From Pseudomonadota bacterium (GTDB taxonomy: Bacteria; Pseudomonadota; Gammaproteobacteria; Steroidobacterales; Woeseiaceae), in the NCBI GenBank assembly GCA_022572185.1, contig JACZWL010000002.1, forward strand, positions 1 through 64,000: DNA of 64,000 nucleotides. Reading direction: 5' to 3'. Both the position numbers and the translations under genes were made by a program. Position 1 is the first letter of the stretch, and every line of letters begins with the position of its first letter. The notes under the pieces were generated by a model. It did not search any database, was not told the origin of the DNA, and worked only from the letters and a program-made list of their open reading frames with translations. Below are positions 18,681 through 52,588 of this stretch, in pieces.

Positions 18681-18825
18681 GCCAGAGCCGGGTGGCGGGA
18701 CAGTCGGTGAGCGTCGTATTGTCCGAGCGGAGCAGGATGCGGGAGCGAGGACACTACCGATGTGAGCGGAGTCAGGGATGGCGCAGCAAACTTTAGCGAA
18801 GCGACTGTCCCGGGAACCGGCGTGG
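18681..18825 (+). repeat. Structured intergenic repeat, copy 1 (downstream of ffh)
   Basis: This is a near-homologue of 36322-36470. Shared unpaired-looking blocks include CCGAGCGGAGCAGGA and CTTTAGCGAAGCG. An outer stem is formed by GCGGGACAGTCG (18695-18706) and CGACTGTCCCGG (18802-18813). An inner stem is formed by GTATTGTCC and GGACACTAC. A short stem is GTC-AGGGAT-GGC. Stem bases differ from copy 2 while pairing is kept. It lies between the ffh stop and the rpsP promoter. Confidence 0.75.
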
Positions 18826-18873
18826 ATATTACGAGATTGCTCCCAAAGGGCTGATTTTCCTTGGCAAAAATGC

Positions 18874-18901
18874 TTCACATTTCCCGGGAAATGCGTAAAA
18901 T
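18874..18901 (+). promoter_or_regulatory. Candidate sigma-70 promoter of rpsP operon
   Basis: A -35 like TTCACA (18874-18879) and a -10 TAAAAT (18896-18901) are separated by 16 bp, about 70 bp before the rpsP start and beyond the structured repeat. The GC-rich discriminator (GCGCGC) is usual for ribosomal-protein promoters. The -35 is imperfect. Confidence 0.5.
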
Positions 18902-18969
18902 GCGCGCTTTACTCGGGTTGGCTCCCGAGCTTGGGCATGTCTGCCTGTCATTGATTTAGCGGAATTGTA

Positions 18970-19617
18970 ATGGTCAGTATTCGTCTTTCGCGCGCTGGCG
19001 CGAAAAAACGTCCTTTTTACCACCTGGTGGTCACCGACAGTCGCAATCGTCGGGACGGCCGGTATATTGAACGGCTTGGCTTTTTTAGCCCACTTGCAAA
19101 GGAGAACGAAGAGGATCTTCGTATCGATCTGGAGCGCGTCGATTATTGGATAAGCCAGGGCGCACAACCCTCCGCTCGCGTGGCTTCCCTTCTGAAGGCC
19201 AAGCGAAAGGGGGTGTCGGTCTCAGGCGGCGGCAGGCGAAAGAAATCGGCAGGCGCCAGCAAGCGAAAGGAAGCCGTAGAGGCGACTGACAGCAAGCAGG
19301 AGGAAGCGGCCGAGGCGACTGACAGCAAGCAAGAGGAAGCGGCCGAGGCGACTGACAGCAAGCAAGAGAAAGCGGCCGAGGCGACCGACAGCAAGCAAGA
19401 GGAAGCGGCCGAGGCGACCGACAGCAAGCAAGAGAAAGCGGCCGAGGCGACCGACAGCAAGCAAGAGGAAGCGGCCGAGGCGACCGACAGCAAGCAAGAG
19501 AAAGCGGCCGAGGCGACTGACAGCAAGCAAGAGAAAGCGGCCGAGGCGACTGACAGCAAGCAAGAAGAGGCGACCGACGCGACTGATAGCAAGCAAGAGG
19601 ATGCGGCTGGCACCTGA
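18970..19617 (+). CDS. rpsP: 30S ribosomal protein bS16 with a ten-fold 11-residue repeat tail
   Basis: bS16 is an early-assembly protein of the 30S body. Residues 1-80 are a standard bS16 ([55 protein letters not shown]). A basic linker ([15 protein letters not shown]) leads into residues 100-209: ten tandem 11-residue units of the type [11 protein letters not shown], with E/K variation at the second position, then EDAAGT. At 215 residues it is more than twice the usual 80-90. The tail should be highly charged and either disordered or helical. The frame is intact through every unit, so the tail is translated if the gene is. The gene heads rpsP-rimM-trmD-rplS. Confidence 0.95.
19267..19596 (+). 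repeat. Ten 33-bp tandem repeats inside rpsP
   Basis: The unit GAGGCGACYGACAGCAAGCA plus GAGRAAGCGGCC recurs ten times without a frame-breaking indel. Silent variation (ACT/ACC for Thr) and one amino-acid position (Glu/Lys) differ between units. Identical neighbouring units suggest recent slippage or unequal crossing-over, so copy number probably varies between strains. Confidence 0.95.
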
Positions 19618-19644
19618 GGGTCTTGACGGGCGCAGTCGTTCTGA

Positions 19645-20172
19645 ATGCAGGCGGCAAGCAGAGTGGTGCGGAAAGAGATAACGCCGGTTGTCCTTGGTCG
19701 AATAGCAGGTGTCTTCGGCGTCAAGGGGTGGGTCAAGGTGTTTTCCTACACTGAGCCACGGGAGGCAATTCTCGATTATGAAAACTGGCTGCTGAAGCGT
19801 GGAGATGCCTGGCAAGAAATAACTGTTGAAGAAGGCAAGAGGCACGGCAGTTCGGTGATCGCGAAACTTGCGAACGTCGGGGACAGGGACGCGGCGGCAG
19901 AATTAATAGATTTCGATATCGTTGTGCGGCGCGAAGAGTTACCAGATACCGAAGAGCGTGAATATTACTGGACGGACCTGGAAGGATTGCAGGTCGTTCA
20001 CCGTGACGGCCGATCGCTGGGAAGAGTGGCGTATGTAATGGCGACAGGCGCGAACGATGTGCTGGTCGTGGAAGGGGATCGCGAATGTCTGATCCCGTTT
20101 GTGATGGACAGATTTATTCTGGATGTTGATCTTGCCAGGGGCGTGATCAGCGTTGATTGGGAATGGGACTGA
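19645..20172 (+). CDS. rimM: Ribosome maturation factor RimM
   Basis: RimM helps the 30S head assemble, binding uS19. The 175-residue protein has the N-terminal barrel ([35 protein letters not shown]) and the C-terminal PRC-barrel domain ([67 protein letters not shown]). The motif YWTDLEGL is diagnostic. A GTG at 19663 is an alternative start. It sits 27 bp after rpsP and 4 bp before trmD, the standard order. Confidence 0.95.
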
Positions 20173-20176
20173 CCTA

Positions 20177-20947
20177 ATGCAGATATGCGTTGTCAGTATT
20201 TTTCCTGCGATGGTAGAAACGGTAGCCGAATACGGCGTCGTCGGGCGGGCGGCAGAACGCGGCCTGTTGTCCGTCGGGGGTATGAACCCAAGGGATTTTA
20301 CCAACGATGCACACCGCACGGTCGATGATCGTCCGTACGGTGGTGGTCCAGGCATGGTGATGAAATTCGAGCCTGCCGCGGCCGCGATTCGGGAAGCCCG
20401 GCGTGTGATGCCTGCCGGCTGCCCGGTGATCTGCCTGAGCCCGCAGGGTGCGGTATTTGACCAGGCGGCGGCGGAGCGACTAGCCCGATTGCCGGGGCTT
20501 ATTTTGCTGGCCGGCCGCTACGAGGGTGTCGACGAAAGACTCATTGAGGCTGAAGTCGATGAAGAATTGTCGCTGGGTGATTTCGTACTCAGCGGTGGGG
20601 AGATTGCGGCGATGGCCGTGATCGATGCAGTGGCAAGGTTGATTCCTGGTGTGCTCGGCGACGAGGATTCCGCATCGCAGGACTCTTTTGCAAGAGGCTT
20701 GCTGGATTGTCCACACTACACGCGCCCCGAAGAAATTGAAGGCCGGCGTGTGCCGCCAGTGTTGTTATCGGGTGATCACGCAAAGATTGCGCGTTGGCGG
20801 CACAAACAGGCCCTGGGCCGCAGTTATATGAGGCGTCCTGATCTTGTGAGAAAATTGAATCTGGACCATGAGCAACAGAAGTTGCTGGATGAGTTCCTGG
20901 ACGAGCAGGGGCCGGGGACAGCCAACGGGCAATTGGCCCGGCAATGA
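20177..20947 (+). CDS. trmD: tRNA (guanine-37-N1)-methyltransferase
   Basis: TrmD methylates G37 of tRNAs reading CNN/CGG codons to prevent +1 frameshifting. The SPOUT knot motifs are clear: [46 protein letters not shown] and [31 protein letters not shown] use the ATG at 20177 ([14 protein letters not shown], 256 aa); an earlier in-frame start would overlap rimM. The C-terminal domain carries [12 protein letters not shown]. Length and context are normal. Confidence 0.96.
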
Positions 20948-20981
20948 ATACAGCACCAGTGTTACTGGCAGGTAGAGAACG

Positions 20982-21332
20982 ATGAGCAAAATAATCGAGT
21001 CAATTGAACAGGAACAAATCAACAAGGAAATTCCGGACTTTGCACCAGGCGATACGGTGCTTGTTCAGGTCAGGGTCAAGGAAGGTACTCGCGAGCGTTT
21101 GCAAGCCTTCGAAGGTATCGTTATCGCGAAAAAAAATCGCGGCCTTAACTCATCCTTTACCGTTCGAAAAATTTCTCATGGCGAAGGCGTGGAACGGGTT
21201 TTCCAAACCCACAGCCCGGTGGTCAGTGCTATTCAGGTCAAACGCCGTGGCGACGTTCGTCGCGCGAAGCTCTATTTCCTTCGCGGTCGAACCGGAAAAG
21301 CAGCACGAATCAAAGAGAAAATTCGTCGGTAA
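20982..21332 (+). CDS. rplS: 50S ribosomal protein bL19
   Basis: bL19 lies at the 30S-50S interface. The 116 residues include [55 protein letters not shown] and the basic end [20 protein letters not shown]. The size is normal and there is no extension, in contrast with bS16 at the head of the same operon. Downstream lies a large inverted repeat instead of a simple terminator. Confidence 0.97.
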
Positions 21333-21365
21333 AACCTGATACCAATAAGGGGTCAGAAAGAAATC

Positions 21366-21462
21366 GTGCCGGGCACTGACTTATTTGACTTATCGAACAT
21401 GCAAGCTAGCTTGGCGGCGGCCAGCCGCAAGTCGATAAGTCAAATAAGTCAGTGCCCGGCAC
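21366..21462. repeat. Large inverted repeat (31-bp perfect arms) after rplS
   Basis: The arms 21366-21396 and 21432-21462 are perfectly complementary (outermost GTGCCGGGCACTGACTTATT). The 35-nt loop contains the palindrome AAGCTAGCTT and a second hairpin GCGGC/GCCGC. GGGGTCAGAAAG just outside the left arm recalls the GGGGTC arm of the palindrome at 3248-3299. It may serve as the rplS terminator or be a REP/RAYT-type mobile palindrome. Confidence 0.8.
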
Positions 21463-21577
21463 CAAAAACGTGATCCCTTACCTGATAGGACACCCCGTTT
21501 TACGTAAGACGTCCGTATCATTAGGGATCCAGGGATTTGGGGTGGAACCTATCCACTCAAGAGGGGTCTGTCGTGGC

Positions 21578-22456
21578 ATGAGCACCATGCATGGAATCGG
21601 TGTGCGAATCAGCCTGTTAGGAGTCTGCATTGGCGCATGCTTGTCGCTGTCCGGTTGCGCTTCCCTGATGTCTTCTGCGGCCAGCGGTCTGGCCGACAAC
21701 CTGTCGGCAGCCGTTCTGAATCAAAATGACCCTGAAACCGTGCGGGACGGTGCACCGGCGTACCTGCTGCTGCTCGACAGTTTTCTCGAAGGCAGTCCTG
21801 ACGATCCGGCGCTGCTGATGGCGGCTGCCAATTTGTACGCGTCCTACGGTGCGGTTTTTGCGGATGACGAAGAGCGGGCCGCCCGCCTTACCGAGAGAGC
21901 CCAGAACTATGCGCAGAGGGCAGTCTGTGTACGTTTTCCTGCGGGCTGCAACTGGACCAGGGCGCCATATGACGAGTTCACCGGGACTCTTCACGGGCTC
22001 AGCAGCAAACATGCAGATGTCACCTACAGTTACGCGATCGCGTCGCTTTCTTACATTCGTGCCCACAGCGATGACTGGAATGCGCTGGCAAGATTGCCAC
22101 ACATGGAAGCACTGCTTATCAAGTACCTGGACATTAGCGAATCTGCCGATGATTGCGACGTGTATAACTATCTGGGCATTTTGCTGACCTTGAGACCGCC
22201 GGCACTCGGCGGAGAGCAGGAAAGAGGTCGCGACTACTTTGAGCGTTCCATCGAATGTTCCAAAGGCCTCGACTTGTCCGTGAAAGTAGAATTTGCGCGA
22301 GGCTATGCGCGAATGCTTTACGAACGTGAATTGCATGACCGCCTGCTTGATGAAGTCATGGCTGCAGATCCAAATGTGCCGGGCTATACACTAACGAACG
22401 TTTTGGCGCAGCGTGATGCTGCCGACATGCTGGCCAGTGCTGATGATTACTTCTGA
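21578..22456 (+). CDS. TRAP transporter-associated lipoprotein TatT
   Basis: A 292-residue lipoprotein: the signal peptide VRISLLGVCIGACLSLSGC ends in lipobox LSGC, followed by an all-helical TPR-like body (AYLLLLDSFLEGSPDDPALLMAAANLYASYGAVFADD, RAQNYAQRAVCV). TatT proteins, described structurally from Treponema, trimerise and cooperate with a DctP-type receptor. The gene directly precedes dctP here, which supports the call. The ATG at 21578 follows GAGGGG; an ATG three codons on is an alternative. Several cysteines (CVRFPAGCNW, DDCDVYN, IECSKG) are unusual for a periplasmic lipoprotein and may form disulfides. Confidence 0.8.
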   Translation: MSTMHGIGVRISLLGVCIGACLSLSGCASLMSSAASGLADNLSAAVLNQNDPETVRDGAPAYLLLLDSFLEGSPDDPALLMAAANLYASYGAVFADDEERAARLTERAQNYAQRAVCVRFPAGCNWTRAPYDEFTGTLHGLSSKHADVTYSYAIASLSYIRAHSDDWNALARLPHMEALLIKYLDISESADDCDVYNYLGILLTLRPPALGGEQERGRDYFERSIECSKGLDLSVKVEFARGYARMLYERELHDRLLDEVMAADPNVPGYTLTNVLAQRDAADMLASADDYF

Positions 22457-22508
22457 TACGCGTTTAGTGCCTGCTACCATTGCAAAACAGCTTCGACGGA
22501 GAATGCTG

Positions 22509-23681
22509 ATGCGAATTGTTATTTGTCTCGTCGCTGCCACCTTTCTGTCTGTGGTCAATATTTCCAGTGCGGAAGCCAGGACACAGTTCAAGATAGCGAC
22601 GCTTCTTCCCGAGAATACGGATCGCGTGAAGAGAATGCGCGCGGCTGCCGATGAAATCGAGGAGCGCACAAATGGCCGCGTTTCGTTCAAGTATTACTTC
22701 GGCGGAAGTCAGGGGAGTGACGACAAAGTACTTTATAAGATGAAGATCGGCCAGCTTCACGGCTCGACTTATTCGCCGGCTGCTTTACAGAAGGTTTATC
22801 CGGACATCAACATTTATGGCTTGCCATTCATCTTCGAGTCGGAGGATGAAGTGGACTATGTTCGCAAAATTATGGACGTCAAGTTTCAAAGGGGACTTGA
22901 AGAAGCAGGCTTTGTGAATTTCGGCTTTGCGGGCGGTGGTTTTGCGATGGTCTTGTCCAATAAGCCAGTCCGCAGTCACAATGATCTGAAAGGCCAGAAA
23001 GTATGGGTGCCCGAAGGCGATGTATTCAGCTATGAAGCGATGCAGGCGCTGAAGTTGACACCGGTCCCATTGGAAATAGCGAATGTAATGACCGGCCTGC
23101 AGACGGGCTTGATTGATATTGTTGCGATTCCTCCAGCAGGTGCCCTGATTTTTCAATGGCACACCAAAGTCAATTACGTAACGCGAATGCCGGTTATTTT
23201 CACCATGTATTTCATGGTCATTGATGCAAGGGCGTTTAGGCGAATAGAGGCAGCTGATCAGGCGATCGTCAGAGAGGTAATGGGCCGCCTCTACGCTGAG
23301 TTCGATGCGGCTGAGCGAAAAGATGCGCCCAATGCCATGCAAGCGTTAATTAATTCCGGCGTCGAAAGCGTGGAGCCGCTTCCTGACGAGTTCGAGAAGT
23401 TGCGAAAAGAGACGGCCATAGCGAACCGGAGCATGGCGGATCGCGGCATGTTCTCGTCTGAACTGCTGGAAGAGATGTTGTCACACGTGCAGGAATTTCG
23501 GCGCGCGCAGGCGTCCCGTGACACGATGACGTGCGTGCAGGCGGGGGATGAAGTTGACGCCGGGGAGCAGATCGTCCCCGCGACTGAAACCAAAGTGAGG
23601 GAAGCAGGCGGCATGGATGTTTGTGAACCCGATGCAAGCGCGACAGAACCGCTCGAACAGGCTTCTGGGAGCGAAAGCTAG
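22509..23681 (+). CDS. dctP: TRAP transporter solute receptor, DctP family, with C-terminal extension
   Basis: This is a periplasmic substrate-binding subunit. The signal peptide MRIVICLVAATFLSVVNISSAEA is followed by a DctP fold (FKIATLLPENTDRVKRMRAAADEIEERTNGRV, GLPFIFESEDEVDYVRKIMD, GFAGGGFAMVLSN, LKGQKVWVPEGDVFSYEAMQALKLTP). The ATG at 22509 has GGAG 7 nt upstream. At 390 residues it exceeds the usual ~330; the last ~50 residues (after QEFRRAQASRD) form an acidic, Ser/Ala-rich tail with two cysteines. The ligand is not deducible. Its TAG stop overlaps the end of a MITE-like element. Confidence 0.88.
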   Translation: MRIVICLVAATFLSVVNISSAEARTQFKIATLLPENTDRVKRMRAAADEIEERTNGRVSFKYYFGGSQGSDDKVLYKMKIGQLHGSTYSPAALQKVYPDINIYGLPFIFESEDEVDYVRKIMDVKFQRGLEEAGFVNFGFAGGGFAMVLSNKPVRSHNDLKGQKVWVPEGDVFSYEAMQALKLTPVPLEIANVMTGLQTGLIDIVAIPPAGALIFQWHTKVNYVTRMPVIFTMYFMVIDARAFRRIEAADQAIVREVMGRLYAEFDAAERKDAPNAMQALINSGVESVEPLPDEFEKLRKETAIANRSMADRGMFSSELLEEMLSHVQEFRRAQASRDTMTCVQAGDEVDAGEQIVPATETKVREAGGMDVCEPDASATEPLEQASGSES

Positions 23682-23965
23682 TACTCCGTCAAGGTGATAT
23701 TGATGGATTCAGAGCTACCCAGATGATCCAGGACAAGGCGCAGTCCGCAGGGAACGGCATGTCCTTTGCAAGGACTGCAACGCGGTATTGGATCATCTGG
23801 GTAGCTCCCTTCGGGCGAGCCGTGCAGCGGTCGTCCGCGGTGTTGCGCCTCCTGGCAAGGATGTGCCATTACCGGCGAGGTGCGCCGGGCGGTTTTTTAT
23901 GCCCTCTGGGTGCAACCGCTTCACGACTCGCTGAACCCATCATTATCACCTTGACGGAGTACTAG
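23678..23965. mobile_element. MITE-like element between dctP and dctQ
   Basis: A 280-bp insert (23682-23961) starts TACTCCGTCAAGGTGATA and ends with its reverse complement. Homology of the two ends extends over about 30 bp with few mismatches. CTAG flanks both ends (23678-23681 and 23962-23965), consistent with a 4-bp target duplication. An inner inverted pair (GCTACCCAGATGATCCA near 23714, TGGATCATCTGGGTAGC near 23790) lies within. No transposase is encoded, so it would be moved in trans, perhaps by an IS5-like enzyme given the CTAG target. Confidence 0.8.
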
Positions 23966-23967
23966 TA

Positions 23968-24492
23968 ATGACTGGAGCAATATCCAGGTTGCTCGCTCGC
24001 CTGGAGCGTTGGGGAACCGCGGCGGAAAACGCGTCGCTGGTACTGTTGTTGGGCTCTTTGATGATACTGGCGGTCGGCCAGATCGTCTTACGCACCTTTT
24101 TCGACTCCGGCCTGATATGGGCGGATGAGTTACTGAGAATCATGGTGCTCTGGATCGCGCTGATCGCGTCGGTTGCAGCGGCTCGAAGCAAGCGGCACCT
24201 CAGAATCGACATACTTTCGCATTTCGTTCCCGAACGATATACACAGGTTCCCGGCATCATCGTCGATGGATTTACTTCTTCGATCTGTGGTCTGCTTGCG
24301 TGGCACTCGTTCCGCTTCCTGCAGATCACGATAGAGATGGACGACACGGTACTCGTGGATTTTCCATCGTGGATTGCATATGGCATTTTGCCTGTGGCAT
24401 TTTTCCTGATGTGCTACCGCTTTTTCGTGTTGTGTGCAAAAGGAATGGTCGATATTTTTAGCGCGAAAAAAGTTCCGGAAGCAGCGAAATGA
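23968..24492 (+). CDS. dctQ: TRAP transporter small membrane subunit DctQ
   Basis: DctQ is the small, four-helix subunit that joins the large permease subunit. The 174-residue protein has membrane segments ASLVLLLGSLMILAVGQIVLRTFF, LLRIMVLWIALIASVAAARS, FTSSICGLLAWHSFRFLQI and IAYGILPVAFFLMCYRFFVLC, and the family feature WADELLRIMVLW followed by SKRHLRIDIL. The ATG overlaps by 4 bp with dctM downstream. The Shine-Dalgarno GGAG (23956-23959) lies inside the MITE terminal repeat, so translation of this gene now depends on element sequence. Confidence 0.9.
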   Translation: MTGAISRLLARLERWGTAAENASLVLLLGSLMILAVGQIVLRTFFDSGLIWADELLRIMVLWIALIASVAAARSKRHLRIDILSHFVPERYTQVPGIIVDGFTSSICGLLAWHSFRFLQITIEMDDTVLVDFPSWIAYGILPVAFFLMCYRFFVLCAKGMVDIFSAKKVPEAAK

Positions 24493-25748
24493 TATTGCTC
24501 GGGTTGGTGCTTGTGCTCTTGGCCGTTTTTGGCGCACCGCTATTCGCGGTAATCGCGACAAGTGCCATGCTCGGATACCACAAGGAAGGAATCGACCTGA
24601 TGGCAATGGCTATTGAGGTTCTCGGCATTTCACAGATGCCGTTTCTTTCGGCAATACCGCTGTTCACTTTTGCCGGATATCTTCTAAGTGAAAGTGGTGC
24701 TCCCGGCCGCCTTGTGCGGCTCACTGGTGCGGTTCTCGGCTGGATGCCCGGTGGGCTCGCGCTTGTGGCTCTGGGTGCCTGTGCATTTTTCACCGCATTT
24801 ACCGGAGCATCAGGCGTCACGATCATTGCTCTTGGGGCGATTCTCTATCCAGCGCTAAAGGAAGACGGTTACCCGGATAATTTTAATCTCGGCCTTGTCA
24901 CGACCTCTGGCAGCCTGGGTTTGCTATTTGCGCCATCGTTGCCACTTATCCTTTACGGCATTGTTGCCGAAGTCTCGATAGATAACCTGTTTCTGGCCGG
25001 CATTCTGCCAGGTTTGCTCATGCTGATGATGTTGTCGGGGTGGAGCCTCTGGGTCAATCGGGCTAACCGAAAACCGCTCGCTACATTTTCATGGCGCAAG
25101 GTTGGGGCATCACTGCGTGAGTCGATTTGGGAGTTACCGCTTCCGATCGTTGTTCTCGGCGGAATTTATTCCGGCTTCTTTGCGGTTTCGGAAGCTGCTG
25201 CTGTTACGGCACTGTATGTGTTGATTGTAGAAGTCGTCATTCATCGCGAAATAAAGCTGTCGGAGCTGCCACGCATCATGCGTGAGTCCATGCTGCTTGT
25301 CGGGGGAATACTCATCATTTTGGGCGTGTCCCTCGCATCAACGAATTATTTGATCGATGCTGGTGTGCCACAGAAAATACTGGAATTTGTATCGACATTT
25401 GTGAGCGGTCAGGCAAGTTTCCTGTTCCTGTTGCTAATTTTTCTGCTCATACTTGGGGCAATTCTGGATATTTTTTCGGCCACGGTGTTGGTCGTACCCT
25501 TAATTTTGCCGATTGCCGCGCAGTACGGTATAGACGAAGTTCATCTGGGCATCGTATTTCTTGCCGCTATGCAATTGGGTTATCTGACGCCGCCGGTCGG
25601 GTTGAACCTGTTTATCGCGAGCTATCGATTCGATAAGCCCATAATGACGGTCTATTCAGCGACATTCCCGTTTCTGATGATTCTTTTGTTATCCGTTATC
25701 CTGATCATGTACTGGCCGCAGTTATCTCTTTTTCTGGTACCAAACTGA
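24489..25748 (+). CDS. dctM: TRAP transporter large permease subunit DctM
   Basis: DctM is the Na+-driven, elevator-type large subunit. The 419 residues form about 12 spans. Signature regions are ALGACAFFTAFTGASGVTIIALGAILYPAL, GLVTTSGSLGLLFAPSLPLILYGIVAE, GGIYSGFFAVSEAAAVTALYVLIVE and LGIVFLAAMQLGYLTPPVGLNLFIASY. It starts 4 bp inside dctQ. The subunit set is complete (T, P, Q, M), so the transporter should work if the interrupted operon is still transcribed. Confidence 0.93.
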   Translation: MILLGLVLVLLAVFGAPLFAVIATSAMLGYHKEGIDLMAMAIEVLGISQMPFLSAIPLFTFAGYLLSESGAPGRLVRLTGAVLGWMPGGLALVALGACAFFTAFTGASGVTIIALGAILYPALKEDGYPDNFNLGLVTTSGSLGLLFAPSLPLILYGIVAEVSIDNLFLAGILPGLLMLMMLSGWSLWVNRANRKPLATFSWRKVGASLRESIWELPLPIVVLGGIYSGFFAVSEAAAVTALYVLIVEVVIHREIKLSELPRIMRESMLLVGGILIILGVSLASTNYLIDAGVPQKILEFVSTFVSGQASFLFLLLIFLLILGAILDIFSATVLVVPLILPIAAQYGIDEVHLGIVFLAAMQLGYLTPPVGLNLFIASYRFDKPIMTVYSATFPFLMILLLSVILIMYWPQLSLFLVPN

Positions 25749-25788
25749 AGATATTTGAATTGACTGTTAAAATGCTGAGGAAATATTC

Positions 25789-26889
25789 ATGAATCGACCG
25801 GGAATCGCACCTGCGTCCCTGCTTGTGTTCGCCCTGACATTGTCGGCAAGTGCAGAATCCGGCTCTGGTTTGGACGATATTCGCTTGCCGTCGGGATTCT
25901 CGATAGAGCTATATACGAACGAAGTTCCGAACGCCCGGTCTCTTGCCTTAGGCGAACATGGGACGATTTTTGTCGCTACCCGGAAGGACGGTCGTGTGTA
26001 TGCTGTGGTTCCGCGTAAAGATGAAGCGCCCCGTGTAGTGACTGTTGCCAAAGATTTGGATATGCCAAACGGCGTGGCCTTTCATGATGGCGACCTGTAC
26101 GTTGCCGAGCTTTCACGCATAAGCAGGTACAGTGATATCGAGTCAAGTCTCGAGAGTATTCCTGAGCCGGAAGTCGTCAATGACACCTTTCCGTCGGAAC
26201 GGCACCACGGTTGGCGATACATAGGCTTCGGTCCTGACGGTAAGCTCTACATAGGCATCGGCGTACCCTGCAATATTTGCAAGAAAGAAGGATTTGGCAA
26301 CATAACGCGACTGAACGCCGACGGTTCCGGAAAGGAAATCATTGCCTATGGCATACGAAATTCAGTTGGATTTACCTGGCACCCGGAAACCGGGGAAATG
26401 TGGTTCACTGACAACGGCCGGGACATGCTCGGCGACGATGTGCCACCGGACGAGCTTAATCACCTGCGATCATTCGGCGCTCATTTCGGTTATCCGTTCT
26501 GTCACGCTGGTGAGATCAGCGATCCTGAATTCGGAGAGCAGGGTGACTGCAAGGATTTCACTCCTCCGGCTTTAAAGCTTGGGCCACACGTCGCTGCGCT
26601 GGGGATCAAATTTTATACGGGTGATATGTTTCCACCGGAATATCGGGGACAGCTGTTCATTGCCGAGCACGGGTCCTGGAACCGGTCAGAAAAGATCGGC
26701 TACAGAATTATGTTGGTACGAATGGGCGATAATGGGCCGTCCGGATACGAAGTATTTGCGGATGGCTGGCTTAATGGAGACGAGGTTGCAGGCCGTCCGG
26801 TGGATTTATTGTTTCTTGACGACGGTTCGATGTTAGTCAGTGATGACAAATCCGGTAGCATTTACCGAATTAGCTACCGGAATCCTTGA
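25789..26889 (+). CDS. Secreted PQQ-dependent sugar dehydrogenase-like beta-propeller (sorbosone dehydrogenase family)
   Basis: The 366-residue protein has an N-terminal signal (GIAPASLLVFALTLSASAES), then a six-bladed propeller of the soluble glucose/sorbosone dehydrogenase family: LPSGFSIELYTNEVPNARSLALGEHGTIFVATR, RHHGWRYIGFGPDGKLYIGIGVPCN, YGIRNSVGFTWHPETGEMWFTDNGRDMLGDD, HVAALGIKFYTGDMFP, FIAEHGSWNRS. The family oxidises aldoses with PQQ in the periplasm; whether this member does so is unproven. It begins 40 bp after dctM, so the TRAP substrate and this enzyme could be linked. No PQQ biosynthesis gene lies in the window. Confidence 0.8.
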   Translation: MNRPGIAPASLLVFALTLSASAESGSGLDDIRLPSGFSIELYTNEVPNARSLALGEHGTIFVATRKDGRVYAVVPRKDEAPRVVTVAKDLDMPNGVAFHDGDLYVAELSRISRYSDIESSLESIPEPEVVNDTFPSERHHGWRYIGFGPDGKLYIGIGVPCNICKKEGFGNITRLNADGSGKEIIAYGIRNSVGFTWHPETGEMWFTDNGRDMLGDDVPPDELNHLRSFGAHFGYPFCHAGEISDPEFGEQGDCKDFTPPALKLGPHVAALGIKFYTGDMFPPEYRGQLFIAEHGSWNRSEKIGYRIMLVRMGDNGPSGYEVFADGWLNGDEVAGRPVDLLFLDDGSMLVSDDKSGSIYRISYRNP

Positions 26890-26971
26890 ACTGGCGATTG
26901 CGATAAAAATCGGCGGGTGACTCGAAATCATCGCAAGAATATTTCTTTTTAGAATAGACGGAGAGTAAAAA

Positions 26972-28970: not shown

Positions 28971-29996
28971 TTACGTCCAGTTCAGGATCACCTTGCCGGT
29001 CTGCCCCGATTCCATTAGCTGGAAAGCTTCTTCATAGTCGTTCATATCGAAGTGGTGGGTGATGACCGGGCTGACGTCGAGGCCGCTCTGCAACATGCTC
29101 GTCATCTTGTACCAGGTCTCGAACATCTCGCGTCCGTAAATCCCTTTTAAAAGCAAACCTTTAAATATCACTTCGCTCCAGTCGATAGCGGTTTCTTCGG
29201 GCGGAATTCCGAGCAGGGCGACACGGCCGCCGTGATGCAATGTCCTGAGCATATCGCGGAAGGCCGATGGATTGCCCGACATCTCCATGCCGACATCGAA
29301 ACCTTCCTCCATGCCGAGCTCGTGCATCGTGTCGTCAAGCGAGCCCTCCGTCACGTTCAGTGCCACCGTGGCGCCCATTTTTTTTGCGAGCCGAAGGCGG
29401 TAGTCATTGATGTCTGTGATAACGATATGACGGGCGCCAGCGTATCGGGCGATGGCAACGGCCATGATGCCGATCGGTCCGGCACCGGTGATCAACACGT
29501 CTTCACCAACGAGGTCGAATGACAGTGCAGTATGCGTCGCGTTACCCAGCGGATCGAGTATCGATGCCATGTCGTCGGTGATTGCATCGGGTAATTTGAA
29601 CACGTTGAAAGCAGGGACGGATATGTACTCTGCAAATGCGCCAGGCCTGTTAATACCGACGCCTGCCGTGTTGATGCAGAGGTGGCGACGCCCGGCACGA
29701 CAGTTGCGACAGACGCCACAGGTTATGTGGCCTTCGGCAGAAACGCGATCGCCTACGGCAAAACCCTTGACCTCGCTTCCGTATTCGACGATTTCGCCGC
29801 TGAATTCGTGGCCGATGGCAATCGGCACAGGAATAGTTTTGCTGGCCCAGGCATCCCACTGATAAATGTGAATATCCGTGCCGCAGATCGCGGTGCGGCC
29901 GACTTTGATCAACACGTCATTGTGGCCGGGCTTCGGCATATCCATGTCCTCGAGCCAGATACCGCGCTCAGGTTTCGATTTGACCAGTGCTTTCAT
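28971..29996 (-). CDS. tdh: L-threonine 3-dehydrogenase
   Basis: A zinc medium-chain dehydrogenase oxidising L-threonine to 2-amino-3-ketobutyrate with NAD+. The 341-residue protein shows catalytic zinc ligands in [13 protein letters not shown] and [12 protein letters not shown], the structural zinc loop [15 protein letters not shown], and the nucleotide motif [22 protein letters not shown]. The C-terminus [16 protein letters not shown] is typical of Tdh. It follows kbl by 7 bp, and together they convert threonine to glycine and acetyl-CoA. Confidence 0.95.
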
Positions 29997-30003
29997 GCTG
30001 TTC

Positions 30004-31203
30004 TCAGTTCAGGACCTTTAGTTCACGACCGACTTCGGCAAATGCGCCTAGCGCCTGGTCGAGGTGATCACGGGTCAGGCCGGCAGACATCTGCGTCCGT
30101 ATGCGTGCCTGGCCCTTCGGCACGACCGGAAAGGCAAACCCGACCACATAAATCCCGCGATCGAGCAAGCGATCGGCCATGGTTGTTGCGAGCCTGGCGT
30201 CACCGAGCATTACGGGGATGATGGGATGCTCGCCGGGTCTGAGCTCGAAACCAAGCTTCGTCATTTTGTCGCGAAAATAAGCTGTGTTTTCCCACAACTT
30301 ATCGCGCAGGCTTGCGTCATTCTCAAGCAGGTCGAGCACCGCAATCGATGTTGCCGCGATCGCCGGAGCAACCGAGTTGGAAAACAAATACGGCCTGGAC
30401 CTTTGCCGCAGCCAGGCAACGATCTCTTTTCGTGCCGATGTATAGCCGCCTGACGCTCCACCCAGTGCCTTGCCCAGTGTCCCGGTAATAATGTCGATTC
30501 GGCCCACGACAGCGCGGTACTCGTGCGTACCTTTGCCATTGTCCCCGAGAAATCCGGCAGCATGCGCATCATCGATCATCGTCAACGCGTCGTAACGTTC
30601 AGCCAGGTCACAAATTGAATTGAGATCCGCGATGGTCCCGTCCATCGAGAATACGCCGTCGGTCACGATCAGCCTCGTACGGCAATCACCTGCCGCTCTG
30701 AGCTGAGACTCCAGATCATGCATATCGTTGTTCTGATATCGAAGACGTTTTGCTTTGCAAAGGCGAATGCCGTCGATGATGCTGGCGTGATTGAGCGCAT
30801 CGCTGATGACGGCATCCTGCTCGTCGAGCAGTGTCTCGAAAAGACCACCATTCGCATCAAAACAGGATGGGTAGAGGATCGTGTCTTCGGTGCCAAGGAA
30901 ACGGCTGATGCGTTCTTCCAGTTGCTTGTGGACGGTTTGCGTCCCACAAATGAACCGGACCGAAGCCATGCCATAGCCGTACTCGTCAAGCGCCGCGTGC
31001 GCTGCCTTTATGATCGCCGGATGATTGGCAAGTCCGAGGTAGTTGTTTGCACAGAGATTAATGACTCGTGTCGTGCCGCCGTTATTCCGGACATCGATCG
31101 CGGCCTGTTGTGGACCTGCGATCAGTCGTTCCTGCTTATAGAGACCCTGGGCTTTGAGCGCCTCTGTTTGTTCCGCCAGTGCATCGAGAAAATTGCCGGG
31201 CAC
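30004..31203 (-). CDS. kbl: 2-amino-3-ketobutyrate CoA ligase (glycine C-acetyltransferase)
   Basis: Kbl is a PLP-dependent alpha-oxoamine synthase cleaving aminoketobutyrate with CoA to glycine and acetyl-CoA. It contains [34 protein letters not shown], the PLP-lysine segment [19 protein letters not shown] and the late [24 protein letters not shown] start at the GTG at 31203 (399 aa) because GGAGGG lies 7 nt upstream; a longer frame adds ten unlikely residues. It is the first gene of kbl-tdh and diverges from hslR across about 60 bp. Confidence 0.95.
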
Positions 31204-31265
31204 GGGATTGCCCTCCGAACTCAAAGGCCGCAAAGTATATCAGGCGCGAATTGGTACGGGGATGT

Positions 31266-31667
31266 ATGGCTGACAAGTATGACAACGGTCTGAGGGTCGA
31301 TCGCTGGCTCTGGTTCACCCGCTTTCACAAGACAAGGATGCTGGCTTCCGCCGCGGTGCAGGCAGGTCATGTCAGGATTAACGGGGAGCGTGCAAGACCG
31401 GGCACGCGGGTGGTGCCTGGTGATACGATCGAACTTGTCAAGGACCGGCTCCTGTACAAACTGAGTATTCTGTCATTGCCGGCACGTCGCGGGCCGGCGA
31501 CCGTGGCCCGGGAATGTTACGTAGAGGATTCTGCGACGCAGCAAGAGCGCCAGGAAGCGATTGCGCAGATAAAAGAGGACCGCAGACAAATGCCACGGAC
31601 GCGCGGCAAGCCTGACAAACATACGCGTCGCAAGCTTCGTGAGCGGAGTCGCCGGCAGCCGGACTGA
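31266..31667 (+). CDS. hslR: Heat shock protein 15 homologue (S4 RNA-binding)
   Basis: Hsp15 binds 50S subunits blocked with peptidyl-tRNA and helps recycle them. The 133-residue protein has an S4 domain (RVDRWLWFTRFHKTRMLASAAVQAGHVRINGERARPGTRVVPGDTIEL) and the typical basic C-terminus (GKPDKHTRRKLRERSRRQPD). The ATG at 31266 gives MADKYDNGLRVDRWLW; the open frame upstream runs through the kbl start region and is not used. Heat-shock control cannot be judged from the short divergent promoter region. Confidence 0.9.
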   Translation: MADKYDNGLRVDRWLWFTRFHKTRMLASAAVQAGHVRINGERARPGTRVVPGDTIELVKDRLLYKLSILSLPARRGPATVARECYVEDSATQQERQEAIAQIKEDRRQMPRTRGKPDKHTRRKLRERSRRQPD

Positions 31668-31731
31668 TGTTTGTTATCGGCAAACGCGAGCTTGCTGACG
31701 CGTATGGACTGAAGCCGGCCGCACAATACCC

Positions 31732-31737
31732 TATAAT
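31732..31737 (+). promoter_or_regulatory. Candidate -10 element (TATAAT) for putA
   Basis: A perfect TATAAT lies 59 bp before putA, followed by a GC-rich discriminator and then a small hairpin CTTGTT-GCGGTGT-AACAAG (about 31746-31764) in the leader. No good -35 stands at the right spacing, so an activator may be needed; PutA here lacks the DNA-binding domain that represses put genes in enterobacteria. Confidence 0.5.
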
Positions 31738-31795
31738 CGCCGCCCTTGTTGCGGTGTAACAAGCCCACCCAGCACCGGTTGAATGGTACTCATTG

Positions 31796-34700
31796 ATGCG
31801 TTTCACTGATCATTCCTTTATCAAAGCGGGACCTTTGGGGCACGTAAGCGATAAGTACCTTGCGGACGAAGAGTCACTGGTCAACGAGTTGATCGAGATT
31901 GCAGATGCGGGGCAGTCCGCGCGAACGAAAATTCAGGGCACGGCAGCAAATCTCGTGCGTGCGGTGCGGCGGCAGACGGCAAAAGAAGGTGGCATCGACG
32001 CCTTTTTACAGCAATATAATTTGTCGTCCGAGGAAGGCGTGTTGCTGATGTGCATAGCCGAAGCCTTGCTACGCATTCCCGATGCGGATACTGCGGATCG
32101 TTTGATAGCAGATAAGATTACGTCTGCGCGGTGGCAGGATCACCTTGGGGAGAGCGACTCACTTTTTGTAAACGCATCGACCTGGGGCCTGATGCTTACG
32201 GGCCGACTGCTGACCCTTGACGAGACGGCAACTTCCAACCCTGCAAAATATGTCGGCAAGCTCGCGAGTCGTGCCGGAGAACCGGTCGTCCGGGCCGCGA
32301 TGCGGCAAGCCATGCGTATCATGGGTCACCAGTTCGTGATGGGCCGGACCATCGAGGAAGCGCTCGCCCTCTCGCAGAAAAAAAACGAGAAACGCTATCG
32401 ATACTCGTTCGACATGCTTGGCGAGGCAGCATTGACGGCCGCCGATGCGGATAATTACATGCAGTCATACACCTCAGGCATAGACAGCATCGGTGACAGC
32501 GTCGACTCTTCGGGCGACATATTTTCTGCGCCGAGTATTTCAATAAAACTCTCTGCCTTGCATCCGCGCTATTCATATACTCAATACGACCGCGTCATGA
32601 ACGAGCTTGTGCCACGCGTTGTCGAACTGGCTGTGCAGGCATACGACAGGGGTATCGCGCTGACGATTGACGCAGAGGAGGCCGATCGCCTGGAGCTGTC
32701 ACTGGAAGTCTTCGAGCGGGTTTATGGTGATAAACGACTGACGGGCTATGAAGGTCTGGGCCTGGCGGTTCAGTCCTACCAGCGGCGGGCCACCGATGTA
32801 CTGCACTACTTGATGGACAGTGCCGAGACGGTCGGCCGCAGAATTCCCGTGCGCCTGGTTAAGGGAGCGTATTGGGACACCGAAATAAAGCATGACCAGG
32901 AGCAAGGGCTCGAAAGTTATTCGGTATTTACGCGCAAGGCGCACACGGACGTGTCTTACCTTGCCTGTGCGAGGTTGCTCATCAATGCGGGAGACAGACT
33001 GTATCCGCAATTTGCAACGCATAATGCACACACTATCGCCAGCATTCTGCATTTCGCCGGCTCAAGGACCGACTTTGAATTTCAACGACTTCATGGTATG
33101 GGAGTAGACTTGTACGGCGAGCTCATCGACCCCAGGAAATTCGCCCACGCCTGTCGTGTATATGCGCCGGTCGGCAATCACGAGGATTTGTTGCCTTATC
33201 TCGTGCGTCGTCTTCTGGAGAATGGCGCCAACACCTCGTTCGTAAACCGTATCGTCGATGAGAGCATTGACGTAAGCGACATTGTGGCGGATCCGATTGA
33301 CATCGCCATCGCCGGCCAGTCGAAACCTCATCCGAGAATTCCTTCACCGTTGGATATTTTTCAACCAGAACGAAAAAATTCCCGTGGGCGCAACCTGCCG
33401 GATCGTCGCCTAACTGCAAAATTACTTGATGAGATGCAAAAGGCGTCGGCTGAGAGCCTGTCGGCATGCGCAATCGTCGGCGGTCAGGCAATCCCGGGAT
33501 TGAAAGTGCCGTCTGTGAATCCTGCGCAAACGGATCAGGTCGTCGGAATCTGCCAAACCGCAGATATCGATGCTGTGGACAGGGCCTTAGGTATTGCCGT
33601 GGGGGAACAACGCGGCTGGAACCAGACGCCGGCCGCGGACCGGGCGGCGATTTTACAAGAGGCCGCCGACCTCTTTGAAGGACATGCAGCTGAATTAATG
33701 GCGATCTGCGTTGCTGAAGCCGGTAAGACAGTACCGGATGCGGTTTCCGAATTGAGGGAAGCGGTTGACTTTCTACGCTATTACGCGGCCCAGGCGAATC
33801 GGTTTTACGGCGAACGCACAAGTCTTCCCGGCCCGACCGGTGAGCGAAATGAGATAGGCATGCGTGCACGTGGAATTTTTGTCTGTATTAGTCCGTGGAA
33901 TTTTCCGTTGGCCATTTTCACCGGACAAGTTGCTGCCGCGCTGGCCAGCGGTAACGCGGTACTTGCAAAGCCGGCAGCGCAGACTCCGCTGGTTGCACAC
34001 CGGGCGCTGCGGCTGTTGCTCGAGGCTGGCGTGCCGGAAGGTGTATTGCACTTTCTGCCGGGAGACGGCGCGACGATCGGTGGTCATGCCGTGGCGGACC
34101 CGAGGGTTTCCGGCGTTGCGATTACCGGCTCGACCGAGACTGCGAGGATCATCAACCGGGCTCTGGCGAGCCGGGAAGGTCCGATCGCGACTCTCATTGC
34201 CGAAACCGGCGGACAGAACGCGATGTTTGTCGACAGCTCGGCGCTACCCGAGCAGGTAGTGCTCGACGCGATCTTATCGGCGTTCAACAGTGCAGGTCAG
34301 CGATGTTCCGCACTTCGACTACTTTGCTTGCAGGAGGAAATCGCACCCCGTGTAATCGAACTGCTATCCGGGCACATGGAGGAGCTGCGAATCGGCGATC
34401 CGTCCGATCTGTCGACGGACGTTGGACCGGTTATCGATGCGGATGCAAGAGGTGCAATTGCAAAACACGTTGCCGGCATCTCGAGCAAAGCGACCATGAT
34501 TTATCAATGCGAACTGCCGAAAGAAACAGATGGTGGAACGTTTTATCCACCGACCTTCATCGAGATCGACAGTCTGGATCTTTTACAACGTGAAGTTTTT
34601 GGTCCCGTATTGCACATCATGCGATATTCGAGCGGCAAACTCGCGGAAATCCTGGATGCCGTCAATCAGTTGGGCTATGGGTTGACAATGGGCGTGCACA

Positions 34701-34945
34701 GCCGAATCGACAGTCGCACAAGGGCCATCACGGAGCAATCTGGCGCCGGTAATATCTATATCAATCGCAACATGATCGGTGCGGTCGTCGGTGTCCAGCC
34801 ATTTGGTGGCCGGGGCTTATCGGGGACCGGACCCAAAGCCGGCGGACCCCATTACCTGCCGAGATTTGGCAGTGAGTATTCGGTCAGCAACAATATTTCG
34901 GCCGTTGGTGGCAACGCTACCCTGCTGTCGCTCGACGACGACTAG
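31796..34945 (+). CDS. putA: Bifunctional proline dehydrogenase / L-glutamate-gamma-semialdehyde dehydrogenase
   Basis: PutA oxidises proline to glutamate in two channelled steps, passing electrons through FAD to the membrane. The 1049-residue protein has an N-terminal arm and alpha domain, a PRODH barrel (SIKLSALHPRYSYTQYDRV, RLVKGAYWDTEIKHDQEQG, FATHNAHTIASI) and an aldehyde dehydrogenase half (FVCISPWNFPLAIFTGQVAAAL, VAITGSTETARIINRAL, AETGGQNAMFVDSSALPEQVV, catalytic Cys in FNSAGQRCSALRLL). There is no ribbon-helix-helix N-terminus, so it is the short, non-regulatory type. It starts at the ATG at 31796; a TTG immediately before is possible. sdaA follows after 3 bp. Confidence 0.95.
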   Translation: MRFTDHSFIKAGPLGHVSDKYLADEESLVNELIEIADAGQSARTKIQGTAANLVRAVRRQTAKEGGIDAFLQQYNLSSEEGVLLMCIAEALLRIPDADTADRLIADKITSARWQDHLGESDSLFVNASTWGLMLTGRLLTLDETATSNPAKYVGKLASRAGEPVVRAAMRQAMRIMGHQFVMGRTIEEALALSQKKNEKRYRYSFDMLGEAALTAADADNYMQSYTSGIDSIGDSVDSSGDIFSAPSISIKLSALHPRYSYTQYDRVMNELVPRVVELAVQAYDRGIALTIDAEEADRLELSLEVFERVYGDKRLTGYEGLGLAVQSYQRRATDVLHYLMDSAETVGRRIPVRLVKGAYWDTEIKHDQEQGLESYSVFTRKAHTDVSYLACARLLINAGDRLYPQFATHNAHTIASILHFAGSRTDFEFQRLHGMGVDLYGELIDPRKFAHACRVYAPVGNHEDLLPYLVRRLLENGANTSFVNRIVDESIDVSDIVADPIDIAIAGQSKPHPRIPSPLDIFQPERKNSRGRNLPDRRLTAKLLDEMQKASAESLSACAIVGGQAIPGLKVPSVNPAQTDQVVGICQTADIDAVDRALGIAVGEQRGWNQTPAADRAAILQEAADLFEGHAAELMAICVAEAGKTVPDAVSELREAVDFLRYYAAQANRFYGERTSLPGPTGERNEIGMRARGIFVCISPWNFPLAIFTGQVAAALASGNAVLAKPAAQTPLVAHRALRLLLEAGVPEGVLHFLPGDGATIGGHAVADPRVSGVAITGSTETARIINRALASREGPIATLIAETGGQNAMFVDSSALPEQVVLDAILSAFNSAGQRCSALRLLCLQEEIAPRVIELLSGHMEELRIGDPSDLSTDVGPVIDADARGAIAKHVAGISSKATMIYQCELPKETDGGTFYPPTFIEIDSLDLLQREVFGPVLHIMRYSSGKLAEILDAVNQLGYGLTMGVHSRIDSRTRAITEQSGAGNIYINRNMIGAVVGVQPFGGRGLSGTGPKAGGPHYLPRFGSEYSVSNNISAVGGNATLLSLDDD

Positions 34946-34948
34946 CAT

Positions 34949-36307
34949 ATGTCGTCTATCAGCATTTTCGATATTTTCAAAATCGGTATCGGGCCGTCCA
35001 GTTCGCATACGGTCGGCCCGATGAAAGCCGCAGGCGCGTTCGTCAGCGGGGTTGAACAGAGCGGTGGGCCAGTACACAGACTGGAAGTCAGGCTGTATGG
35101 TTCTCTCGCACACACGGGAAAAGGGCACGGGACCGATTCGGCGATACTGTTGGGGCTCAACGGTGCCGATCCGCGGACAGTCGATCCCAACGAAGCAGGC
35201 ACGATACTCGGAAATATCAGGAGCGAGCACAGTCTGGACTTGCCGGGTGTGGGAACGATCGAGTTCGATCCTGATACCGACCTGGTGTTCGATTTCGGGG
35301 AGCCGCTGCCGCGCCACACAAACGGCATGCGGTTTACGGCGTTTGACGGCGACGGCACGATCATCCTCACCGAAGAATATTTCTCGATTGGCGGCGGTTT
35401 TATTGTGCGTGACGACGAGGAAGAACCGTCAAAGCAGTCCGGTGAGCCGCCTTATCCATTTTCCAATGGCGCGGGCCTTTTGGCGCAGGCTGAAAATAGC
35501 GGGCTATCGATACCCGAACTCGTTTATCAGAACGAACTCAGTTGGCGAAGCAAAGCAGAATTCGACCAAGAGCTCACAGATATCTGGGAGGCGATGCAAG
35601 CCTGCGTGCAAAGAGGACTGCACACGGACGGTGTGCTTCCAGGTCGCATGGCCGTGACTCGCAGGGCCGCGCGATTGTATCGCTCGCTCAAGTCACAGGA
35701 AAGCCAAAGCGGCCTCGAAAACATGGATTGGGTCAATGCCTATGCGATCGCAGTAAACGAGGAAAATGCAGCCGGCGGCCGCGTCGTCACATCGCCGACC
35801 AATGGTGCGGCCGGTATTATTCCGGCGGTACTGCATTACTACAAATATTTTGTCGCAGACTTTGACGAAGACGGCGTCCGGCGCTTCTTACTGGCAGCCG
35901 GGGCGATCGGCATTCTGTACAAGATAAACGCTTCGATTTCCGGCGCGGAGATGGGCTGCCAGGGCGAGGTCGGTGTCGCCTGTTCCATGGCCGCGGCCGG
36001 TCTGGTCGCCGCATTCAACGGCTCTGCCGGCCAACTGGAAAACGCCGCGGAAATCGGTATGGAGCACAATCTCGGCCTCACTTGTGACCCGATTGGTGGC
36101 CTGGTGCAGATTCCCTGCATCGAGCGGAATGCGATGGGCTCAGTCAAGGCAATCAACGCGGCGCGTCTCGCCATGCAGGGCGACGGATCGCACAACGTCT
36201 CGCTCGATCAGGTGATCAGCACGATGCGACAGACAGGACTGGATATGTCGACGATTTACAAGGAAACATCGCAGGGCGGCCTGGCCGTCAACGTCCCCGA
36301 ATGCTAG
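34949..36307 (+). CDS. sdaA: L-serine ammonia-lyase (iron-sulfur)
   Basis: This single-chain [4Fe-4S] serine deaminase converts L-serine to pyruvate and ammonia. The 452 residues include the N-terminal beta domain ([22 protein letters not shown]) and the catalytic domain with cluster cysteines in [16 protein letters not shown] and [41 protein letters not shown] and TYKE-type [18 protein letters not shown] at the end are also diagnostic. It is 3 bp from putA, so proline and serine catabolism are co-transcribed. Its transcript runs into the structured repeat at 36322 and a T-run. Confidence 0.96.
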
Positions 36308-36321
36308 TCGCTTAGACAACA

Positions 36322-36481
36322 GACCCGGAGCCGACAGTCTGGATGTTCGCAGAGCGTCGCAGAATCCGAGCGGAGCAGGAGGCGAGAGTGAGGATTCTCC
36401 GATGCGAGCGCAGCCAGGGACGGCGCAACAAGCTTTAGCGAAGCGTGTCTCCAGACTGCCGGCTCCGGTCAGGCTTTTTTT
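36322..36481 (+). repeat. Structured intergenic repeat, copy 2, with T-run (sdaA terminator)
   Basis: This is homologous to 18681-18825. The outer arms are 36322-36343 and 36450-36470 (about 20 pairs, with GACAGTCTGGA facing TCCAGACTGCC). The inner stem AGAATCC/GGATTCT and small stem GCC-AGGGAC-GGC match the positions of copy 1 stems but with different bases. The outer arm is followed by TTTTTTTT (36474-36481), so it should terminate sdaA transcription. The right arm is also coding: it encodes the last residues and stop of sixA on the minus strand. Confidence 0.75.

Positions 36482-52497: not shown

Positions 52498-52588
<91 letters not shown>

Follow-up and report, generated by a model that had tools for sequence, protein, structure and literature searches.

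A dispersed intergenic three-way-junction element in Gammaproteobacteria and its likely role as a CsrA-binding decoy RNA

CsrB is a single locus that carries many hairpins and has its own promoter and terminator, and REP/BIME, ERIC and other MITE-like intergenic palindromes are repeats that conserve the sequence of their stems. The nearest known family to the element described here is TwoAYGGAY (Rfam RF01731), which shares clan CL00106 with CsrB; Gammaproteobacteria appear among its carriers in the 2010 table of PMC2864571, and CsrA-related sRNAs of Alcanivorax are described in PMC9788540. The repetitive hairpin elements of mitochondria are dispersed, possibly mobile and intergenic, and the types described in PMC2800124 conserve their stems and vary their loops. 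DNA template switching between inverted arms, as treated in PMC8604942, predicts runs of paired arm changes together with inversion of the spacer, the inversions reported there measuring 2–5 bp.

The window analysed here, a 64,000-nt stretch of DNA, holds two copies of an element that, in the Rfam comparison proposed by the earlier note on this DNA, match no Rfam family at cut-off. The TwoAYGGAY model gave no match in the window at its gathering cut-off, nor around either copy at E ≤ 10, and a search at E ≤ 0.01 of the genome to which the window belongs was likewise negative; the model matched one of 18 relatives' loci, below the cut-off, and exceeded the cut-off in one of 117 genomes of the order (G063), where it aligns over the element with 44.6 bits (gathering cut-off 43). 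The form of the element found in the window's genome thus escapes the RF01731 model. We put even chances on its being a dispersed intergenic RNA family in which the outer stem (P1) would be bound to its site, the core would be exchangeable and invertible, selection would act on one strand, and the copies would together form a distributed CsrA decoy.

Copies in the window and across the order

Both copies lie on the forward strand at the reported 18681–18825 and 36322–36470, one between ffh and rpsP and the other between sdaA and a sixA-like gene in convergent orientation. Copy 1, with its outer arm extension, spans 18682–18825 by its fold and is matched by the R2 covariance model at 18697–18809 (93.2 bits, E 6.9e-19). 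Its P1 5′ arm (18696–18706) is predicted to pair with the 3′ arm (18802–18812); read against the consensus, the sequence places the junction GC and the P2 hairpin (GTCG..CGAT, loop AGGAT, GGA at 18735–18737) at 18711–18761, the P3 hairpin at 18762–18791 with the hexaloop C[AGGGAT]G at 18773–18780, and the conserved joining strand TTTAGCGAAG at 18792–18801. On the reverse strand, the 3′ half of copy 1 recurs in part at 18628–18672: the P3 end, the joining strand and the 3′ arm are repeated there, in a 45-nt inverted repeat with 18781–18825 that is 76% complementary. Copy 2 spans 36325–36468 by its fold (R2 match 36340–36451, 79.5 bits, E 1.5e-15), and sequence and fold place its P1 5′ arms, CCGGAGCCG and CAGTCTGGA, at 36325–36343 and its 3′ arms, TCCAGACTG and CGGCTCCGG, at 36450–36468. 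Against the same consensus, the junction GC and P2 hairpin occupy 36354–36403 (GGA at 36378–36380), the P3 hairpin 36404–36433 (hexaloop C[AGGGAC]G at 36415–36422), and the joining strand, again TTTAGCGAAG, 36434–36443.

The shared blocks and the three stems that differ between the copies while still pairing are as the earlier note described them, except that it overlooked a T.T mismatch in the inner stem of copy 1. The folds of copies 1 and 2 have z-scores of −3.67 and −4.67, respectively, and none of 200 shuffles folded equally well. Short motifs on their own are weak evidence: GAGCGGAGCAGG occurs twice in mismatch-free form, but 10 of 100 shuffles gave at least two matches with one mismatch allowed, and CTTTAGCGAAGCG occurs six times with up to two mismatches (1.8 expected). 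The reality of the observation is settled by further copies. The suspicion that two copies betray a family in this genome proved sound: five copies are present in all, two of them decayed; the three additional ones lie on contigs C64 (upstream of a gene identified by eye as lexA), C14 and C10, the last of these decayed.

The covariance-model search that had been suggested extended the family to 30 of 196 genomes of the order, and it is present in several gammaproteobacterial lineages. A DNA-level search of 39 relatives returned no matches, whereas the structural model did reach them. Three genomes of genus g48 hold 43, 46 (the maximum per genome) and 18 copies, and four of the seven genomes of that genus hold none; most genomes are drafts, in which palindromic repeats may be misassembled. 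Genome G135 carries four copies in 38 kb, and at the sites examined in its sister species G146 and G116 the element is absent or present only as a fragment: R2 gave one truncated match (L274) across eight stretches fetched, fragments were seen by eye, and three closely examined sites, whose surroundings differ by hundreds of bases, held no clean empty palindrome. A phage or plasmid origin was rejected, as neither blastn with copy 1 against phages and plasmids nor an exact consensus pattern in viral contigs gave a match, searches that divergent copies could escape.

Fold, covariation and genomic context

The consensus is a three-way junction of P1, a long outer stem that differs between sites, and hairpins P2 and P3, each ending in an ANGGA-type loop. 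Of 187 copies, 182 retain GGA in the P3 loop and 180 in the P2 loop, with the N position varying; the P3 loop reads C[ANGGAN]G in 163 of the 187, many loops being AGGGAY and not strict AYGGAY, and the P2 loop is frequently other than a hexaloop. (The 187- and 188-copy counts leave out L031–L033, L041, L043, L049, L052, L054, L067–L070, L073, L074, L077, L080, L083 and the pattern loci L105–L118, some of which duplicate counted loci.) Tandem G.A pairs stand close to the base of both P1 and P3, and also within P2, with G.A or A.G in 14, 18, 24, 15, 25 and 21 of 29 copies at columns 13/111, 14/110, 29/59, 30/58, 75/101 and 76/100, respectively. The strands GCGTCG, CGAT and TTWAGC are conserved, as are the loops; the stems vary, and the external stem has no sequence conservation. 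An early idea, that each insertion creates P1 entirely afresh, was weakened by P1 sequences common to copies within G009 and within G544. By eye, the inner part of P1 also looks related among copies in G000 and in G174.

That the family is structured, as had been proposed, is borne out by pairing covariation far above shuffled controls, with scores of 0.541 against 0.160 (29 copies from 26 genomes, in an alignment, A4, biased toward fitting copies by the omission of the weak or partial L049, L052 and L054 and of the duplicate L041) and 0.472 against 0.115 (85 copies from one genus, in an alignment fitted to the model); slid controls were likewise exceeded by both sets. An unstructured plain repeat is ruled out by the covariation in these two alignments, and the added copies mostly keep their pairing, so that the outcome named beforehand as counting against the structure, breaks as frequent as retained pairs, did not occur.

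In P1, G.U pairs outnumber A.C pairs by 142 to 35, counts that come from related copies and hence are not independent. Over the first 20 P1 pairs the numbers are 100 to 12 outside genus g48 and 16 to 3 inside it, and by genome G.U exceeds A.C in 23 of 29 and falls below it in three; the window's own genome contributes only 3 against 2. A looser, gapped measure of the outer arm gave a smaller excess (about 179 against 114, with 13 A.C in the inner arm), and beyond P1 the excess is weak (53 against 44 in P3, the G.U of P2 being mostly one constant pair). The excess in P1 argues for selection acting on one strand.

A somewhat unlikely alternative, though one to be taken seriously, is a non-autonomous DNA transposon of the MITE or REP type, with a single-stranded DNA hairpin recognised by a strand-specific transposase and a functionless RNA; G.T pairs are tolerated by single-stranded DNA hairpins too, and the patchy distribution in genus g48 and around G135 would suit it. 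So would the genomic context: of 116 copies with a resolved gene pair, half are flanked by convergent genes and seven by divergent ones, and those between co-directional genes show no orientation preference (25 sense, 26 antisense), all as raw counts from heuristic ORF calls, without a genome-wide gene-orientation baseline and with 72 of 188 copies lacking a clear gene pair. With a cruder gene caller, 23 of 44 copies lay between convergent genes and 4 between divergent ones, the rest being sense (8) or antisense (9). In G544 the copies lie in repeats of about 220 bp, and at three loci the ends, judged by eye, resemble terminal inverted repeats (AATAGCTG/CAGCTATT) adjoining TA; however, no such ends were noticed on inspection of the window copies, and a recogniser of DNA hairpins alone leaves unexplained why two loops keep ANGGA with a free N.

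Arms and cores at orthologous sites

Orthologous sites were compared among 37, 37 and 10 loci fetched from the g48 genomes with 43, 46 and 18 copies, respectively, and core ranks refer to these fetched loci. Among 28 ortholog pairs, 14 were matched via both flanks and half via a single flank; 20 were counted for arm changes; of the other eight, four had arms that were short or of low similarity and four lay too close to a contig end. The 20 pairs, at 18 sites, yielded 583 P1 base pairs, of which 470 were the same, 90 had changed on both sides and still paired, 7 had changed by half (via G.U), 15 were broken on one side and 1 had changed on both sides without pairing. The 90 double changes thus stand against 22 one-sided ones, when about 18 doubles would be expected if the arms changed independently, and the coordinated changes form runs as long as nine pairs.

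The orthologous core was the best match in only 7 of the 28 pairs (not the closest in 21) and ranked 16th of 37 or lower in 15; for the 14 pairs matched via both flanks, it was the best match in 5 and ranked 16th or lower in 6. In L215/L200 the arms have a clustered coordinated change in common, yet the cores differ, and in L211/L141 the cores differ although the 5′ arm and the available part of the 3′ arm are identical. The core was inverted in three of the 28 pairs, including L164/L035, for which both flanks matched. These comparisons within one genus show that P1 belongs to its site, with both arms changing together, and that the core is flipped at times and often lies nearer to the cores of other sites than to its ortholog.

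Because of the double arm changes, the inverted cores and the orthologous cores that are not each other's closest, template switching in DNA together with core exchange would explain much of what looks like compensation. The earlier note had read the compensating changes as selection on structure; one-strand selection is argued for by the G.U excess, but compensation alone is no proof of it here, since runs of arm changes and inverted cores are both predicted by template switching. It is nevertheless quite improbable that template switching, a published mechanism (treated in PMC8604942 and PMC8794818), keeps these intergenic hairpins perfect by itself, with no selection: the predominance of double changes and the core inversions fit such an account, but the asymmetry of G.U over A.C in P1 does not, nor does the retention of the loop motifs in several families of the class.

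Proposed role and comparison with known systems

In the reading that we prefer, an RNA family selected on one strand, template switching between the arms would copy one arm onto the other and could flip the core, cores would move among sites by ectopic gene conversion or transposition, and the fold would be maintained by selection on that strand. Each copy, when transcribed, would present a pair of CsrA/RsmA sites, making the family a distributed CsrA decoy, like CsrB and as proposed for TwoAYGGAY RNA. A CsrA-binding decoy is the likely role, to go by the loop motif, the clan link and the presence of csrA, which was found in 18 of 20 genomes searched, the window's own included; csrA presence does not discriminate, however, because all four copy-free genomes of genus g48 have it too. 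In a stronger version, which we regard as doubtful, the core would be an RNA cassette open to exchange. Dozens of palindromic sockets, each specific to its locus, would hold interchangeable cores predicted to bind CsrA; a mechanism either dedicated or coupled to replication would replace and flip these cores over the times in which species diverge, giving a distributed, reshuffling decoy array. The stretches scanned showed no promoter-like site at or upstream of the two window copies, which, like the absence of an orientation preference between co-directional genes, counts against the RNA reading. That the copies are transcription terminators or 3′-end stabilisers of mRNA between convergent genes is very improbable, although their placement and stable folds would fit it, as would the 3′ arm of copy 2, which contains a terminator-like site with a T-rich tail. 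On the element strand a T-run (6 of 8) occurs within 20 nt past P1 in 1 of 175 copies, on the opposite strand in none, and in random 20-mers in 9 of 875, by which an intrinsic terminator was rejected as the general role; the T-run that follows copy 2 falls inside the sixA-like reading frame.

The element offers a natural multi-copy system in which RNA selection and DNA template switching, as readings of stem covariation, can be separated at orthologous sites, and in which the spread of bacterial RNA hairpins, and the upkeep of their pairing, can be put to the test. It also suggests that CsrA-binding RNAs of the CsrB/TwoAYGGAY type can occur as intergenic repeats scattered through a genome, in as many as 46 copies.

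Like TwoAYGGAY, the family has two hairpins with AYGGAY-type loops, tandem G.A pairs in the stem and an external stem unconserved in sequence; unlike RF01731 members, the window copies fall below its cut-off, and the present family is set apart by its conserved strands and high copy number and perhaps by core exchange and inversion. As in CsrB, of TwoAYGGAY's clan, and the RsmZ-type CsrA decoy sRNAs, hairpins display GGA for CsrA (here by prediction), but in place of CsrB's one locus there are many, with two sites each. The copies resemble REP/BIME, ERIC and MITE-like palindromes in being short, dispersed, palindromic and intergenic, but conserve loops and vary stems, and so lack the conserved palindromic stem sequence that is the hallmark of REP/BIME; with the mitochondrial elements described in PMC2800124 they share dispersed intergenic hairpins, with the conservation of stem and loop reversed. 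Arm homogenisation, spacer inversion and multibase compensatory changes are held in common with the template-switch-homogenised inverted repeats treated in PMC8604942 and PMC8794818, but here, in contrast to the short inversions reported in the former, the spacer consists of a folded core some 85 nt long.

Copies in the Window and the Three-Way Junction

That two intergenic copies of the element carry stems that differ in sequence and still pair, as the earlier note had observed, holds on inspection: the positions of both copies were verified in the window sequence, with copy 1 (18682–18825, +) between ffh and rpsP and copy 2 (36325–36468, +) separating sdaA from a convergent sixA-like gene, and none of 200 shuffles folded as well for either copy. 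DNA and covariance searches found five copies in the 3.14-Mb genome of the window; in those on contigs C14 and C10, the outer stem (P1) is mostly gone, as read from the sequence. The 3′ half of copy 1 has a partial inverted counterpart (18628–18672, −), which sits upstream of the matching arm at a distance of 108 nt and could pair with it in an alternative fold. The sixA-like reading frame ends within copy 2: its final codons and stop codon lie there (36435–36466, −), and the C-terminus of this protein thus appears to come from the element. An ordinary tRNA gene and small SRP RNA are also present (52498–52585 and 58568–58664, +).

The consensus is a three-way junction closed by P1 (median 28 bp by gapped extension of 133 matches), comprising hairpin P2 (GTCG..CGAT, a variable extension, tandem G.A, and a GGA-bearing loop), hairpin P3 (a variable stem with hexaloop C[ANGGAN]G), and the joining strand TTWA, which returns to P1. 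P1, P2, and P3 all carry tandem G.A beside GC/GC: depending on the column pair, 14 to 25 of 29 copies have it, and in P1 and P3 some copies have standard pairs instead. Across these 29 copies, 84.7% of cells were paired vs 62.7% in shuffles, and none of 500 shuffles and no slid version reached the covariation score or the count of cells with changes on both sides; two measures were less clear, the pairs changed on both sides (reached by 11 of 500 shuffles) and the further pair types (reached by 133 of 500). All five covariation measures exceeded all shuffles in 85 copies from genus g48, in an alignment that was fitted to the model’s structure and thus leans towards it. Because related sequences may beat such shuffles without structure, the slid controls and the spread across genomes weigh more.

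A covariance model built from four copies of the window’s own genome (R1; E ≤ 0.01) matched 30 of the 196 genomes of the order, including the window’s own, in 12 of 60 genera; the strands GCGTCG, GCANGGA, CGATNCGAGC, and TTWAGC were common, with exceptions, to the best R1 matches listed. Run across the class at E ≤ 0.001, a second model (R2; 29 copies, 26 genomes) matched at least 9 of 369 genomes, among them the window’s own; these class counts are lower bounds because strict filters were used and ten candidates were scored per genome. Three of seven g48 genomes held 43, 46, and 18 matches (E ≤ 1e-4), and the other four held none. Scanning named genome contigs with a sequence pattern recovered 14 stretches, labeled in their records as Woeseiaceae, Chromatiales, or unclassified gammaproteobacterial or proteobacterial MAGs; the queries used gave zero matches to phage, plasmid, and viral contigs. 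The existence of the family, which the earlier note had suggested, and its structure are near certain; among the open PMC papers listed for TwoAYGGAY, structured or Woeseiaceae palindromic repeats, dispersed CsrA-binding repeats, and locus-specific repeats with spacer inversion, none describes it in the title or the opening of the abstract.

Sources of Stem Compensation

Selection on structure, the main inference drawn from the compensating changes, proved largely right, except that stem compensation probably has two sources. In an ungapped walk of 188 copies, G.U exceeded A.C in P1 (142 vs 35), both outside g48 (100 vs 12 in the first 20 pairs) and within it (16 vs 3), with G.U more frequent in 23 of 29 genomes and A.C in three. 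A looser gapped extension gave 64 vs 13 in the inner ten P1 pairs and about 179 vs 114 further out; the excess was weak in P2 and P3, and the window’s own genome (3 vs 2 in P1) was too small a sample. Strand-symmetric DNA processes predict equal numbers of the two, and the imbalance therefore favors pairing on the core-coding strand, as RNA or strand-specific single-stranded DNA.

Ortholog pairs were called from flanks, with the element masked, in three g48 genomes, yielding 28 pairs at 23 sites, 14 of them with both flanks matched. Over the 20 usable pairs (18 sites), 470 P1 arm pairs were unchanged and 90 were double changes that still paired, adjacent in runs of up to nine, vs about 18 expected with independently changing arms; one-sided changes left seven paired and 15 broken, and one double change was unpaired. 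Polymerase template switching is linked in one account to arm homogenization and spacer inversion (PMC8604942), and another argues that it can create and maintain RNA hairpins (PMC8794818). The core, between the P1 arms, kept its orientation in 25 of 28 pairs and was inverted in three, one with both flanks matched (L164/L035). The orthologous core was the best match in seven of 28 pairs, and in 15 it came no higher than 16th among 37 (five and six, respectively, of the 14 both-flank pairs); arms were kept around a different core variant at loci L215/L200 (both flanks matched), L211/L141, and L224/L244 (one flank each), the last also inverted. These retained arms and low ranks indicate exchange or conversion of cores from one site to another, provided that the draft assemblies are not misleading, since palindromic repeats are easily misassembled. 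Arm templating and core exchange are both likely.

Contig C9 of genome G135 has some sites at which the element takes the place of several hundred bases of other sequence present in the sister species G116 and G146. By eye, the right arm recurs downstream of the element as several tandem degenerate units at L166, L133, and L139 (G116, G135, G146), one unit including the TTTAGC strand.

Genomic Placement

A clear gene pair could be assigned to 116 copies (heuristic ORFs, no genome-wide baseline). Of these, 58 are flanked by convergent genes, seven by divergent genes, and the rest by co-directional genes, 25 of them in sense orientation and 26 in antisense. A T-run follows P1 in one of 175 copies; copy 2 nevertheless has a terminator-like site, and the promoter-like sites in the vicinity of the two window copies are all on their downstream side. 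This placement is consistent with tolerated insertion or with read-through from either direction, and it lends no support to a 3′-UTR role in a fixed sense.

Comparison with CsrA-Binding RNAs and MITEs

Among 187 distinct copies, GGA is kept in the P3 loop of 182 and the P2 loop of 180, and the second loop base is free to vary. The loops have the CsrA/RsmE form (RUACARGGAUGU; A/UCANGGANGU/A). TwoAYGGAY (RF01731), which shares an Rfam clan with CsrB, has been proposed to sequester CsrA, and it is reported to have tandem G.A and an outer stem that is poorly conserved (both PMC4333381). A search of 20 genomes found csrA in 18, the other two being 72% and 85% complete, and all four g48 genomes without the element have the gene. 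Judged from sequence, the chances of a putative CsrA decoy function are about even.

Close inverted element pairs with facing 5′ ends occur in G179 (L085, L086, L089, L094), inside larger modular repeats, and in G200 (L030, L176–L179). By eye, no MITE-like inverted termini stood out at the window copies. In genome G544, copy-to-copy similarity stops near inverted termini adjoining TA (three loci, by eye), and these ends resemble those of a MITE.
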